A DNA stretch of 64,000 nt from Chitinophaga ginsengisegetis. GTDB lineage: Bacteria; Bacteroidota; Bacteroidia; Chitinophagales; Chitinophagaceae. Each line of letters opens with the position of its first letter. Position 1 is the stretch's first letter. Position numbers and translations under genes: made by a program. Under the pieces are notes generated by a model. That model worked only from the letters and a program-made list of their open reading frames with translations, ran no database searches and was not told where the DNA came from. Location of the stretch: NCBI RefSeq assembly GCF_900168065.1, contig NZ_FUZZ01000001.1:992001-1056000 (forward strand), given 5' to 3'. This document shows positions 1 through 4,430 of the stretch, in pieces.

Positions 1-143
1 ACGGACAACTAGCTGCTTCCAGCACCTGCTGGGATGCCCTGGAAGCTATCACGCACCAGCCGGTAACTGTAACGCATGAACAGGAACAAAAAATAATTGA
101 CGGGAATGGACTGATGGAGGCAATAGCTGCCTACAAAAATTAA
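1..143 (+). CDS. C-terminal end of an ABC transporter ATPase subunit (partial, EgtV/OpuCA-like)
   Basis: Only the last 46 codons are in the window, in frame from base 3 to the TAA at 141-143. The fragment holds no Walker or signature motif, so the assignment is by context. It ends 9 bases before a permease/solute-binding fusion of the quaternary-amine (OpuC/EgtU) class, and the ATPase gene normally sits directly upstream of such a fusion. By that logic it is the nucleotide-binding subunit that powers uptake. The next genes are egtB and egtD, so an ergothioneine importer ATPase (EgtV-like) is a reasonable reading, but this piece alone does not prove it. Confidence 0.5.
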   Translation, partial: GQLAASSTCWDALEAITHQPVTVTHEQEQKIIDGNGLMEAIAAYKN

Positions 144-152
144 CACAACGGC

Positions 153-1721
153 ATGGAAGCAACCGAAACCTTATTTGAATTTGTACAACAACAATCCGGT
201 AAACTGCTGGAGCAAACCCTCACGCATACCGGGCTTACCTTTATATCCGTGCTGCTGGCCGTAGCCATAGGCGTACCCGCCGGTATTTTCATCACCCGTA
301 AAAAAAGACTGGCAGCACCCGTACTCGGCTTCGCCGGTATAATGCAAACCATTCCAAGCATCGCCCTGCTGGGATTTATGATCCCTCTACTGGGCATTGG
401 CCCCAAACCCGCTATAGTGGCCTTGTTTCTTTATGCATTACTGCCTATTATCCGTAATACCTATACCGGTATCAGCGGGGTAGACCCTACTGTTACAGAA
501 GCGGCTACCGGCATGGGGATGAGCCGCCGGCAGTTGCTGATGAAAGTACAGCTGCCACTGGCCATGCCCGTTATACTGGCCGGTATCCGTACGGCCACCG
601 TGATCAACGTAGGCGTAGCCACCCTGGCCGCTTACATCGCCGCAGGCGGACTCGGGGAATTTATCTTCGGCGGCATTGCACTCAATAATACCAATATGAT
701 GCTGGCCGGAGCTATACCCGCGGCTTTACTGGCATTGCTGTTCGACTGGCTCCTGTCGCTGCTTCAGCACATCAATATCCGGAAAGCCCGTAAAACACTA
801 TACGCGCTGCCTTTTATCTTCCTGCTTCTCTCCTCCTTCTATCTTCTGCCCGATACTTACAGCGGTAAAATGCTGGCGGGATTTACCCCCGAATTTATGG
901 GTAGAAAAGACGGCAACCTCGGACTGAAATCTGTATACGGCCTGCATATCCGCACCCTCGTGATCAGTGACATGATCATGTATAAAGCTGCTTATGAAAA
1001 AAAGCTGGACGTTATCAGCGGAAGCAGCACAGACGGCAGGGTAAAGGCATTTGACCTGGTAGTACTGGAAGATGATAAACATATTTTTCCTCCGTATTAT
1101 GCGGCTCCCATCGTACGGGAAGAAACCCTGCAAAAATACCCCGAACTGGAACCGGCACTCAACCTGTTGGTTGGTACAATTAATGATAGTATCATGACGG
1201 AATTGAACTACCGGGTCGACTACCTGAAACAAAACCCGGAGAAAGTGGCAAAGGATTTTCTTGTTGCCAGACAACTCTGGAAACCAGCCGGCAACGGCGC
1301 TAAAGGCAGTATCCGCATCGGCTCAAAAATTTTCGGTGATGGCTATATCCTCGCTGCCATGTACAAGATGCTGATCGAAGGGCATACCGGCCTTGCGGCA
1401 GTCACCAAAACAGGATTAGGCGGCACAAAAATCGTATTCGACGCGTTGGTAAATGACCAGATAGATATGTACCCGGAATATACCGGCACCGGTTTACTCG
1501 TATTACTCCAGGCGCCGCAACAGGTAACCGACAGCATTATCGGCGACAGCCGGAAAGTATACGATTATGTAAGTGCAGCATTTGAAAAACAATATCATAT
1601 CAAATGGCTGCAACCCATCGGATTTAATAATACCTACGCACTAATGATGCGGAGAACTGCAGCAAAAGAACTGCATATCAGCAGCATTTCTGACTTTACA
1701 AAATATGTGAATCAACAGTAA
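153..1721 (+). CDS. ABC transporter permease fused to a circularly permuted betaine-type solute-binding domain (EgtU/OpuC-like)
   Basis: The protein has 522 residues. Residues 1-205 form an inner-membrane permease with several hydrophobic segments and an EAA loop (about 116-147, EAATGMGMSRRQLL). A further membrane segment (about 216-232) leads to an extracytoplasmic binding domain. That domain has OpuBC/OpuCC hallmarks in swapped order: the usual second half (STDGR at 292-296, FPPYYAAP at 312-319, ELNY at 350-353) comes first, and the usual first half (IRIGSK at 387-392, GLGGT at 421-425, YPEYTGT at 440-446, FNNTYAL at 491-497) comes last. Each half occurs once, so this is a permutation, not a duplication. 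Family knowledge: permease-SBD fusions of this class import quaternary amines, and EgtU imports ergothioneine. Position 12 bases before egtB favours ergothioneine or hercynine as substrate. Glycine betaine, choline or carnitine remain possible. Confidence 0.8.
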   Translation: MEATETLFEFVQQQSGKLLEQTLTHTGLTFISVLLAVAIGVPAGIFITRKKRLAAPVLGFAGIMQTIPSIALLGFMIPLLGIGPKPAIVALFLYALLPIIRNTYTGISGVDPTVTEAATGMGMSRRQLLMKVQLPLAMPVILAGIRTATVINVGVATLAAYIAAGGLGEFIFGGIALNNTNMMLAGAIPAALLALLFDWLLSLLQHINIRKARKTLYALPFIFLLLSSFYLLPDTYSGKMLAGFTPEFMGRKDGNLGLKSVYGLHIRTLVISDMIMYKAAYEKKLDVISGSSTDGRVKAFDLVVLEDDKHIFPPYYAAPIVREETLQKYPELEPALNLLVGTINDSIMTELNYRVDYLKQNPEKVAKDFLVARQLWKPAGNGAKGSIRIGSKIFGDGYILAAMYKMLIEGHTGLAAVTKTGLGGTKIVFDALVNDQIDMYPEYTGTGLLVLLQAPQQVTDSIIGDSRKVYDYVSAAFEKQYHIKWLQPIGFNNTYALMMRRTAAKELHISSISDFTKYVNQQ

Positions 1722-1733
1722 GCACCTGTAATT

Positions 1734-2885
1734 ATGTTACTGAAAGAACAATATGAAACAGTACGGCGGAGAAGCGAAAAAATTTGCGCGCCGTTAAAAA
1801 CGGAAGACTATGTAGTACAACCTATTGTGGATGTAAGTCCGCCTAAATGGCACCTGGGCCACACCACCTGGTTTTTTGAAACATTTATCCTGCTTCCTAA
1901 CGCCAAAGACTACACGGTTTTTGATCCTCAATATAATTATGTTTTCAACAGCTACTATGAATCTGTTGGCGCACGGGTGATCCGCACCAACCGGGGTAAC
2001 CTCAGTCGCCCGGCAGTGGAAGATATAATGCGCTACCGGAAATATGTGGATGAAGCCATGATCAGTTTTTTGGAAGAAGAACTGTCGCCGGAACTGCAGG
2101 AGTTGTTTATTCTCGGTCTGAACCATGAGGAGCAGCACCAGGAATTGCTGTACACGGATATTAAGTATATCCTCGGGCATAATCCCCTGTTCCCGGCCTA
2201 CGATATTCATCATAAAGATATACCCGTAGTGAACAATCCCGGCGATAGCTGGTTAAATATACGTGCCGGCGTATACGATATCGGCTTTGCCGGAGATGGA
2301 TTCTGTTTTGATAATGAACTGGGCAGGCATACCGTTTACCTGGCGGATTATAAGATCAGTACCACACTGGTCACCAACACGGAATACCTGGACTTTATCC
2401 AGGCCGGTGGCTACCAGGATTTCCGTTACTGGCACGCAGAAGGATGGGATTGGGTAAAAAACAACCAGGTAACCACCCCGATGTATTGGTACAACATCGA
2501 TGGTAAATGGATGCACTATACCTGGCAGGGGCTTCAGCCAATCATGCCGGATGCACCTGTTACGCATATCAGCTACTACGAAGCAGCTGCATATGCCGCC
2601 TGGAAAGGACAGCGGCTACCAACGGAGTTTGAGTGGGAAGTGGCCGCGCCCCAATTGGCATGGGGCCAGCGGTGGGAATGGTGCGAAAGCGCTTATCTCC
2701 CCTATCCCGGCTTTGCAAAGGCACCCGGCGCTATCGGAGAATATAATGGAAAATTCATGATCAATCAGATGGTGCTGCGTGGTGGCTCGGAAGTAACTTC
2801 TCCAAACCACAGCCGTATTACTTACCGTAACTTTTTCCATCCTTCACTGAGATGGCAATTTACCGGGATAAGATTGGCAGGATGA
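1734..2885 (+). CDS. egtB: Ergothioneine biosynthesis sulfoxide synthase EgtB
   Basis: This 383-residue protein combines an N-terminal DinB_2 helical domain with a C-terminal formylglycine-generating-enzyme-like fold, the EgtB architecture. Family knowledge: EgtB is a non-heme iron enzyme that joins a thiol (gamma-glutamyl-cysteine or cysteine) to hercynine using O2. The likely iron ligands are H40 (in WHLGHTTWFFE) and H131/H135 (in NHEEQHQELL), matching the His triad of the mycobacterial enzyme. The C-terminus (VLRGGS, then RWQFTGIRLA) is typical of the FGE-like part. It is shorter than mycobacterial EgtB (about 430). No egtA, egtC or egtE lies nearby, so which thiol donor and lyase are used is open. 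It starts 12 bases after the transporter and is very likely co-transcribed with it. Confidence 0.9.
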   Translation: MLLKEQYETVRRRSEKICAPLKTEDYVVQPIVDVSPPKWHLGHTTWFFETFILLPNAKDYTVFDPQYNYVFNSYYESVGARVIRTNRGNLSRPAVEDIMRYRKYVDEAMISFLEEELSPELQELFILGLNHEEQHQELLYTDIKYILGHNPLFPAYDIHHKDIPVVNNPGDSWLNIRAGVYDIGFAGDGFCFDNELGRHTVYLADYKISTTLVTNTEYLDFIQAGGYQDFRYWHAEGWDWVKNNQVTTPMYWYNIDGKWMHYTWQGLQPIMPDAPVTHISYYEAAAYAAWKGQRLPTEFEWEVAAPQLAWGQRWEWCESAYLPYPGFAKAPGAIGEYNGKFMINQMVLRGGSEVTSPNHSRITYRNFFHPSLRWQFTGIRLAG

Positions 2886-2973: not shown

Positions 2974-3963
2974 ATGACTGTAATTCCTAATGTACTTGCG
3001 CCATGCAAGCGCAAGCCAGCCACCGATATATTTTATCACGACGTGGTGCAGGGCCTCACTGCACCCCAGAAATACCTGGACCCGAAATATTTCTATGATG
3101 CAGCAGGCGATGCGCTTTTTCAGCAGATTATGCAATGCCATGAATATTACTTAACCGGGTGCGAAATGGAAATCCTCCGGCAGCAGTCCGCACAAATAGT
3201 ACAGGCGTTACAGTTATACGCCGGCGATTTTGATGTGGTGGAGCTGGGCGCGGGCGATGCCACCAAGTCTGTTCACTTACTGCAAGAGCTGATCAATAAC
3301 GGTATAGATTATACGTATTTCCCGATCGATATTTCCGCCAATGTGATCTCGCAGCTGGAAAAGAACCTGCCTGCGCAGATACCGGGCCTGCAGCTGCATG
3401 GCTTAAACGGGGAATATTTCCATATGCTGCAGCAGGCAAATAAGGTAACCACCAAAAAGAAGGTATTGCTTTTTATGGGCGCCAACATCGGCAATTTCAG
3501 CGTGAGCGCTGCCAGGAGCTTCTGCCAGCAGATGCGGCAGTACCTGCAGCCCGGCGACCTGCTGCTGACCGGCTTCGATCTTAAAAAACATCCACAGGTA
3601 ATCCTGAATGCATATAACGACTCCGCCGGTATCACCCGCGCGTTTAACTTCAACCTTTTACACCGTATTAACAGGGAACTGTACGCAGATTTTGACACCT
3701 CAAAATTTGAGCACTTCCCTACCTACGATCCCGTTACCGGCGCCTGTAAAAGTTATCTCATCAGCCTGGAAAACCAGCAGGTGCATATCGGGGAGGATAC
3801 CACCATTCACTTCGCGGAAAATGAATCCATTTATATGGAGATCTCGCAGAAGTACAGCCTGGAAGAAACAGACCAGCTGGCTGCCTACGCAGGCTTCAAA
3901 CCAGTGGCCCGCTTCTTCGACCGCAGGCACTGGTTCACCGATTGCTTATGGAAATGTATTTAA
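2974..3963 (+). CDS. egtD: L-histidine N-alpha-methyltransferase EgtD
   Basis: This 329-residue SAM-dependent enzyme has the expected EgtD length. Family knowledge: EgtD trimethylates histidine to hercynine, the first step of ergothioneine synthesis, in the cytoplasm. Visible motifs are the SAM-binding VELGAGDATKS (around 89-99), the FMGANIGNF block (about 167-175, matching the FPGSTIGNF-type motif of the family) and FYDAAGDALFQQI near the N-terminus. It lies 88 bases after egtB, with a hairpin in the gap. The start at 2974 has only an A-rich leader, as is common in this phylum. The last codons overlap the convergent DinB gene by 4 bases. Confidence 0.93.
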   Translation: MTVIPNVLAPCKRKPATDIFYHDVVQGLTAPQKYLDPKYFYDAAGDALFQQIMQCHEYYLTGCEMEILRQQSAQIVQALQLYAGDFDVVELGAGDATKSVHLLQELINNGIDYTYFPIDISANVISQLEKNLPAQIPGLQLHGLNGEYFHMLQQANKVTTKKKVLLFMGANIGNFSVSAARSFCQQMRQYLQPGDLLLTGFDLKKHPQVILNAYNDSAGITRAFNFNLLHRINRELYADFDTSKFEHFPTYDPVTGACKSYLISLENQQVHIGEDTTIHFAENESIYMEISQKYSLEETDQLAAYAGFKPVARFFDRRHWFTDCLWKCI

Positions 3964-4430
3964 TGCCAGGCGTTCAGTATTCTTCTGAGCGCCACAATTT
4001 CACCGGTATGATAACTGGTGTGGTCCAGCAACAACACCGCTTCGCGGAATAGGTGCTGACCGCTGCCATGCGGAAAAGGCGCGAACAGATCATCGCTCTG
4101 TTCCAGCAGATCAATGAAAGCATGCAGGTCCTTATCCACCTGCTCTACGCTGTGCTTCCAGGCGGCATCGTCCTTTGGAGCAGTTTCCTCCGGCCAGTAC
4201 GCCTTCGGCCACTCTATTTCCTTATAGTCCGGGTTCCTTGAGAAGTCGAGGATATCGTACTGTGTAATCCTGATATGCTCTACCAGTTGCCAGATGCTGT
4301 AAGGCATACCGGCTGGTACCACGCCTCTCAAACCGGCGGGCAGTTTTTTCACAGAGTCGTTGAAAGTAACGTGTGCATTGGGTTTGAGCAACATGTCCTT
4401 CAGCGATTTAACTAACGTAGCAGTATTCAT
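3960..4430 (-). CDS. DinB superfamily protein
   Basis: This is a 156-residue four-helix DinB-like protein. The probable metal-binding triad is H52 (in LVEHIRIT) and H137/H141 (in LDHTSYHTGE), the pattern of DinB/YfiT-type metalloproteins. Family knowledge: members include bacillithiol or mycothiol S-transferases and proteins of unknown function, and EgtB carries a related DinB_2 domain. It is convergent with egtD and overlaps its stop by 4 bases, so it is not in the same operon. This genome makes bacillithiol (bshB1 at 51.5 kb), so a thiol-transferase role is possible. It is inference only. Confidence 0.75.
   Translation of the reverse strand: MNTATLVKSLKDMLLKPNAHVTFNDSVKKLPAGLRGVVPAGMPYSIWQLVEHIRITQYDILDFSRNPDYKEIEWPKAYWPEETAPKDDAAWKHSVEQVDKDLHAFIDLLEQSDDLFAPFPHGSGQHLFREAVLLLDHTSYHTGEIVALRRILNAWH

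Follow-up and report, generated by a model that had tools for sequence, protein, structure and literature searches.

We asked whether the solute-binding domain (SBD) fused to an ABC permease in Chitinophaga ginsengisegetis really has its two halves in exchanged order and, if so, what such an importer would carry and how the exchange arose. The gene lies in a 64,000-nucleotide stretch of DNA, which is called the window here. The following features were located in the window and upstream of it.

Upstream of the window, L081:3755-5170 (G000:C9:989755-991170): pyridine nucleotide-disulfide oxidoreductase, FAD-dependent and carrying a C-x4-C motif
1..143, + strand: 3′ end of an ABC ATPase gene, EgtUA/ProV-like (PF00005); its start is upstream of the window (L081:5205-6143)
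153..1721, + strand: permease-SBD fusion of 522 amino acids in the order permease (TMD), C-half, N-half (open reading frame, Pfam, and alignment)
177..776, + strand: permease core BPD_transp_1, residues ~9-208 (PF00528 at residues 40-205; own HMM)
789..845, + strand: extra hydrophobic helix, residues 213-231, leading the chain out to the SBD (full-length model and hydropathy)
876..1262, + strand: block forming the C-terminal half of the SBD in EgtUC, here residues 242-370 (EgtUC from ~370)
1263..1310, + strand: bridge linking the old C- and N-termini, residues 371-386 (14-20 residues in 70 permuted proteins)
1311..1706, + strand: block forming the N-terminal half of the SBD in EgtUC, here residues 387-518 (EgtUC ~235-365)
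1734..2885, + strand: EgtB, ergothioneine biosynthesis protein (TIGR03440, 542.9 bits, cut-off 360)
2974..3963, + strand: EgtD, histidine N-alpha-methyltransferase (TIGR03438, 294.2 bits, cut-off 290.9; PF10017, E 6e-99)

The layout is that of an EgtU-type importer, with a permease fused to an SBD and an ATPase gene adjoining, and it is directly followed by an ergothioneine biosynthesis operon in which both EgtB and EgtD score above their NCBIfam cut-offs. The best NCBIfam match of the ATPase was TIGR01186 (proV), under its cut-off; the ATPase gene adjoined the fusion in 48 of the 50 related loci described below, and the remaining two are cut by contig ends. The oxidoreductase was the first gene of the operon in 46 of these 50 loci, two of the four misses being cut by contig ends, and it reached no NCBIfam cut-off among the best 25 matches listed, the nearest being PRK06370.1-4. 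In both L. salivarius and L. curvatus, an oxidoreductase of 26% identity likewise adjoins EgtUBC-like fusions. At the other end of the operon, a convergent open reading frame of 156 amino acids (window positions 3960-4430, - strand) shares 4 bases with the end of EgtD and looks DinB-like by eye.

A binding domain with exchanged halves

The sequence-only reading of this DNA had claimed that the fused SBD is circularly permuted, with each of its blocks present once. The motifs that it quoted were all found where it placed them, with STDGR (residues 292-296), FPPYYAAP (312-319), and ELNY (350-353) preceding IRIGSK (387-392), GLGGT (421-425), YPEYTGT (440-446), and FNNTYAL (491-497). PF04069 (OpuAC) matched the whole protein with an E-value of 3e-54 in two stretches, residues 239-370 corresponding to profile positions 114-255. 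When the bacterium's own genome was searched with this profile, positions 114-255 and then 2-113 were met along the fusion gene, and no second PF04069 match was found in that genome. The best solved match in phmmer was EgtUC (E 3.5e-56); against EgtUC chain 9egi, query residues 2-136 aligned with chain residues 141-275 and query residues 145-279 with chain residues 6-136 (query residue 1 is protein residue 241). Controls of standard order were linear on PF04069, E. faecalis EgtUBC over positions 1-257 and E. coli ProX over 2-256, and each SBD half is present once in the fusion protein. These swapped stretches, the swapped EgtUC alignment, and the linear controls bear the claim out in both parts: the SBD is a genuine circular permutant, its C-terminal half standing before its N-terminal half. 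The exchange explains why a linear profile splits the domain in two.

AlphaFold2 on 30 permuted SBDs returned a confident model with two lobes (pLDDT 90.1, pTM 0.87), the structure that the earlier reading had called for, so that the permuted chain is predicted still to form the two-lobe fold. The alignments used for structure prediction, A1 with 30 rows and A2 with 29, consisted of the window and loci of the species scan. By Foldseek and VIA-align, B. subtilis OpuAC ranked first and was sequential over nearly the whole model: model residues 6-285 superposed on residues 12-272 of OpuAC chain 2b4m with Z 20.5 and 3.2 A over 243 residues at 14% identity. Superposition on EgtUC 9egh covered one half only (model 6-146 on 366-506, Z 10.7, 141 residues, 43% identity). 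The full-length model was weak in the membrane part (mean pLDDT 72.6), and helix 213-231 was of low confidence in it.

In EgtUC, lobe D1 comprises residues 232-331 and 445-503 and lobe D2 residues 341-432 (excerpt of PMC9732360). The new termini of the permuted domain lie at about EgtUC 366-369, inside D2, and the old termini, in D1, are bridged by the 14-20 residues listed above. The break therefore falls within one lobe, as had been proposed; the fold is kept in the model, and the anchor to the permease moves from D1 to D2. After the new N-terminus, the model shows strands and helices E9-12, H23-30, E35-38, H41-49, and E55-59, the first strand being followed by a short H14-17. The old N-terminus leads into E154-158, H163-179, E182-187, H193-201, and E207-211, so that both N-termini begin with a beta-alpha-beta-alpha-beta unit. 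A cut at this place would swap the lobes and keep the two-crossing hinge. Internal homology between the halves was weak, with an hhalign probability of 9.6% and P 0.0033 over 19 columns, compared with P 0.24 and 0.47 for permease controls.

Conservation and origin of the permuted order

We searched the genomes of 84,980 species with six peptide patterns, a scan that yields close relatives only, and obtained 50 loci, all of which we take from their record titles to be Bacteroidota. Block order was read with profiles of the three blocks (TMD, C-half, and N-half). The order TMD-C-N stood in one frame in 48 of these 50 loci of other genomes. One of the two others, L047, is truncated by a contig end and retains the order C-N; in the second, L049 of Chitinophaga sedimenti, the frame is broken. 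Matches to the fusion and to EgtB are spread over several frames at L049 5294-7990, pointing to frameshifts either in the gene or in the assembly. A further 21 loci had the order TMD-C-N, including L059, whose frame begins inside the permease owing to one stop. The 69 other loci are all distinct in sequence, making 70 with the window; duplicates of the window (L001, L082, and L083) were left out of the trees and of the pocket and linker counts.

Collinear matches to the permuted form were present in 22 of 395 genomes of a phylum sample, 20 of 395 of a class sample, and 4 of 145 of a sample drawn from a different class of the phylum. The three samples overlap and hold 27 permuted genomes in total, and the bacterium's own genome is in the phylum and class samples. 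Its presence in these samples and among the relatives makes the permuted order an old, inherited trait. Close homologues keep the swapped order and not the standard one. An assembly error or a local rearrangement confined to this genome was accordingly rejected: the gene is a single open frame here, and 69 other loci, all different in sequence, share the order, which leaves that explanation a negligible probability. In plasmid searches, the relatives were fragmented, and none was collinear among the best 60 of 1152 and the best 30 of 395 records.

The survey also returned fusions of other architectures. The SBD-first order N-C-TMD was found in 28 frames (L073-L080, L085, and L094-L112), of which 27 are distinct, L079 and L111 being one gene counted twice; 26 are from the phylum and one, L085, is from Gemmatirosa. 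The order TMD-N-C, with the SBD halves in standard order, was found in five frames from Bacillota and Fusobacteriota. Among the loci compared, the SBD halves were 31-44% identical to those of the window in N-C-TMD and TMD-N-C forms and 44-99% identical in permuted loci. In this survey, which the sequence-only reading had proposed, the other permease-SBD fusions of the phylum thus follow a third arrangement, SBD-first and in standard order.

We then compared trees. The concatenated tree had 45 rows (21 of the 70 permuted rows, 16 of the 28 SBD-first rows, all 5 TMD-first rows, and 3 separate systems), and its permuted rows formed one side of a branch with moderate support of 79/33, present in 78% of bootstrap trees. 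A 29-row SBD tree including OpuAC gave the permuted clade a support of 89/93, and in the larger SBD tree (77 of 107 rows), 40 permuted rows and the permuted contig-end fragment L047 made up one fork of 41. The permease-only tree (79 of 109 rows) did not unite the permuted rows and implied 2 changes. Taken together, a single origin of the permuted form in Bacteroidota is likely. It would most likely have come about through tandem duplication of the SBD followed by loss of the outer halves, once in Bacteroidota. By frame length, no tandem or duplicated SBD intermediate was found in the three genome samples, and inspection of the C-termini by eye showed a chain that ends right after an ISDL-type helix, with no repeated next strand as a remnant of duplication. 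Two long frames, G736 (1117 amino acids) and G744 (857 amino acids), contain one N-C-TMD set each and were taken as spurious extensions.

The precedent named in the sequence-only reading also holds, in that the OpuAC binding protein of the B. subtilis type differs from E. coli ProX by a circular permutation. In a L. plantarum protein of the OpuAC type, which matches 2b4l with E 4e-76, PF04069 starts at position 114, at its residue 39, and the same profile position starts the match at residue 239 of the window protein. This identical start and the identical connectivity would be expected had the Bacteroidota permutation been inherited from the event that made OpuAC, with no second event, and an AU test that placed OpuAC and the permuted rows in one clade did not reject it (p 0.127), a value that says little with the OpuAC branch at its length limit. 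The permuted-SBD profile, however, found 27 distinct EgtU/OpuBC/AfProX/OsmF-type chains at E below 1e-30 and did not reach OpuAC (2b4l) at E up to 10, and L. lactis OpuABC, a relative of OpuAC, is in standard order (junction 423/424), so that common descent would need reversals. We consider a shared event quite improbable. Because sequence searches miss OpuAC and its relatives have the standard order, the same permutation probably arose twice, in OpuAC and in the EgtU-like SBD of Bacteroidota, at one PF04069 site. The Bacteroidota cut would then be the site used independently in OpuAC, which suggests repeated use of a single cut site in the SBD fold.

Binding pocket and ergothioneine genes

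We examined 14 pocket sites of S. pneumoniae EgtUC, drawn from an excerpt of PMC9732360. Nine of them (K242, T275, T296, N339, Y341, E375, R379, D381, and Y443) were identical in all 71 permuted SBDs. The window protein was identical at 10 of 14 sites and differed at G244 (F), F293 (Y), Y337 (F), and Y419 (S). Among the 71 permuted SBDs, position 243 was kept as the isoleucine of EgtUC in 59, G244 was replaced by F in 67, and F293 and Y337 were replaced by Y and F, respectively, in every case. The cage tyrosine Y419 was S in 37 of them and Y in the remaining 34, and the corresponding residue 291 of the window protein (nucleotides 1023-1025) is S. Within A1, serine at this site was seen in Chitinophaga and some relatives. 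The SBD-first fusions carried the same pocket letters at most sites.

These replacements are not confined to the permuted form: by alignment, AfProX, which binds glycine betaine, likewise has F, Y, and F at positions 244, 293, and 337, and it has equivalents of K242, E375, and R379. Because AfProX shares these letters, the pocket indicates a betaine without saying which. The profile of the 30 permuted SBDs in A1 gave similar scores to acetylcholine/nicotine sensors (best 8e-74) and EgtUC (2e-70), and the best NCBIfam match of the fusion was the glycine-betaine protein OsmF, at 128 of 400 bits, far under its cut-off.

The gene order oxidoreductase-ATPase-fusion-EgtB-EgtD on one strand was conserved in 46 of 50 loci, and EgtB and EgtD lay within the examined stretch beside the fusion in all 50. 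In the class sample, EgtD was found in all 20 genomes that have the permuted form and in 49 of the 375 others (Fisher p 5e-17, kinship ignored; the permuted-form and EgtD counts were taken as one and the same draw). Outside the 50 loci, the association was looser: among the 13 divergent permuted loci with flanks (L113-L125), EgtB and EgtD were near the fusion in five (L113, L114, L115, L123, and L125), EgtD alone was near it in L124, and neither was found near it in seven. Twelve genomes, chosen mostly for non-adjacent Egt genes, all had EgtD, and 10 had EgtB above its cut-off; no EgtB above cut-off was found in the other two, G364 and G081. For the SBD-first loci with 13 kb of sequence, EgtB and EgtD were near the fusion in three of seven (L126, L127, and L130) and were not found in four, so that there may be a second rearranged EgtU-like form in other Bacteroidota.

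The choice of ligand therefore turns on the Egt genes and not on the pocket. The domain might instead bind another betaine, such as hercynine, glycine betaine, choline, or carnitine, and serve osmoprotection, with the Egt genes adjacent through operon history. The resemblance of G244F, F293Y, and Y337F to AfProX and the OsmF match speak for this alternative, but EgtB and EgtD adjoin the fusion without exception in the 50 loci, EgtD accompanies the permuted form in every sampled genome that has it, and position 243 is mostly the isoleucine of EgtUC; overall, we regard a different betaine as unlikely. Ergothioneine is the likely cargo of the permuted importer, to judge from gene neighborhood. 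The SBD would close around a histidine derivative with a trimethylammonium group, most probably ergothioneine, and would pass it to a homodimeric permease that works with the ATPase encoded next door. A cell that makes ergothioneine would thereby also regain it from outside, and the oxidoreductase is a candidate for recycling its oxidised form. We thus favor, with a probability of about 0.75, an EgtU-type importer of ergothioneine whose SBD is a true permutant that originated once in Bacteroidota at an OpuAC-like cut. Such an importer would extend EgtU-like transport to ergothioneine-making Bacteroidota.

Tether geometry and known systems

Between permease core and SBD, permuted and TMD-N-C fusions have a similar hydrophobic stretch, with median maximal 17-residue hydropathy of 2.28 (n=70) and 2.23 (n=5), and similar linkers, with median lengths of 33 and 31 residues. 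In SBD-first frames, the chain runs on for just 3-15 residues past the core, and 26 of 28 have a hydrophobic stretch ahead of the SBD. The permutation would exchange the lobes, the short tether leading from the last membrane helix into D2 rather than D1, and would leave the pocket unchanged. In L. lactis OpuA, the permease subunits contact different lobes of one docked SBD, and the linker has 11 residues (excerpt of PMC11065425). By analogy with these contacts and this short linker, we hypothesize that a D2 tether could change which subunit pairs with which lobe.

More broadly, lobe exchange may be a recurrent, site-specific switch of SBDs in evolution, the cut falling at the point where the beta-alpha-beta-alpha-beta unit of the second lobe begins. 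Used in OpuAC and in the EgtU of Bacteroidota at one shared position, it would leave a normal-looking type II SBD with exchanged lobes and, in the fused form, would alter which subunit of the permease homodimer faces which lobe of the docked SBD, in cis or in trans. We offer this tentatively and are inclined to doubt it. We would give even odds to the permutation being mechanistically neutral, that is, fixed by chance with no effect on docking or transport, which is compatible with the importer reading favored above. Neutrality agrees with the similar pocket and linker length of the TMD-N-C and permuted forms, with ligand-bound structures of permuted OpuAC (by their titles), and with glucose binding by the permuted Tp0684 (excerpt of PMC4990184). 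Nothing speaks directly against it; the order is constant in all 70 sequences, yet one inherited neutral change would look alike.

Circular permutation of SBDs is itself already known, from OpuAC relative to ProX and from Tp0684 (excerpt of PMC4990184), and a permutation among glycine-betaine binding proteins was published with CPSARST (excerpt of PMC2395249). In the open-licence literature, we found neither a permuted EgtU nor a permuted SBD fused to a permease described, and in the excerpt of PMC9732360, the sole mention of "permut" concerns GFP. Within that literature, a permease-fused permuted SBD with the OpuAC cut and standard-order siblings in two tether geometries appears to be undescribed.

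Among known systems, EgtUBC of S. pneumoniae (PMC9732360) is likewise a permease-SBD fusion with a separate ATPase, and nine of its pocket residues are invariant in the permuted SBDs. The window protein differs from it in the swapped halves, the D2 tether, and the replacement of G244, F293, and Y337. It also adjoins EgtB and EgtD, whereas homologues of the S. pneumoniae EgtU are nearly confined to Firmicutes, according to the excerpt of PMC9732360. B. subtilis OpuAC (2b4l, 2b4m) has the connectivity and the cut in common with the fusion SBD, C-half first, but at 14% identity it is missed by the sequence profile and has no sequence relationship by this test; it is a free protein on a lipid membrane tether and not fused to a permease (excerpt of PMC2861598). 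L. lactis OpuABC (7ahc) resembles the fusion in its TMD-SBD architecture, in which a hydrophobic helix serves as anchor and the linker has 11 residues (excerpt of PMC11065425), and it differs in having its halves in standard order and glycine betaine as ligand.

Tp0684 (MglB-2) of Treponema pallidum, as described in an excerpt of PMC4990184, is also a natural circular permutant of a tethered ABC binding protein. Unlike the fusion SBD, it is a sugar binder of another SBP cluster, with another cut and without permease fusion, and one of its lobes is re-ordered with a fourth cross-over. The SBD-first fusions of Bacteroidota and Gemmatirosa have the same domains as the window protein and sometimes stand beside EgtB and EgtD (L126, L127, and L130); they differ from it in their N-terminal SBD, their standard order, and the lack of space beyond the core for an additional helix. 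One importer family uses three tethers, to D1 after the permease (TMD-N-C), to D1 before it (N-C-TMD), and to D2 after it (permuted). Together they make up a natural experiment that asks if docking in homodimeric ABC importers depends on which lobe is tethered, a question akin to the idea raised for Tp0684, whose authors considered that tethering possibly drove the permutation (excerpt of PMC4990184).
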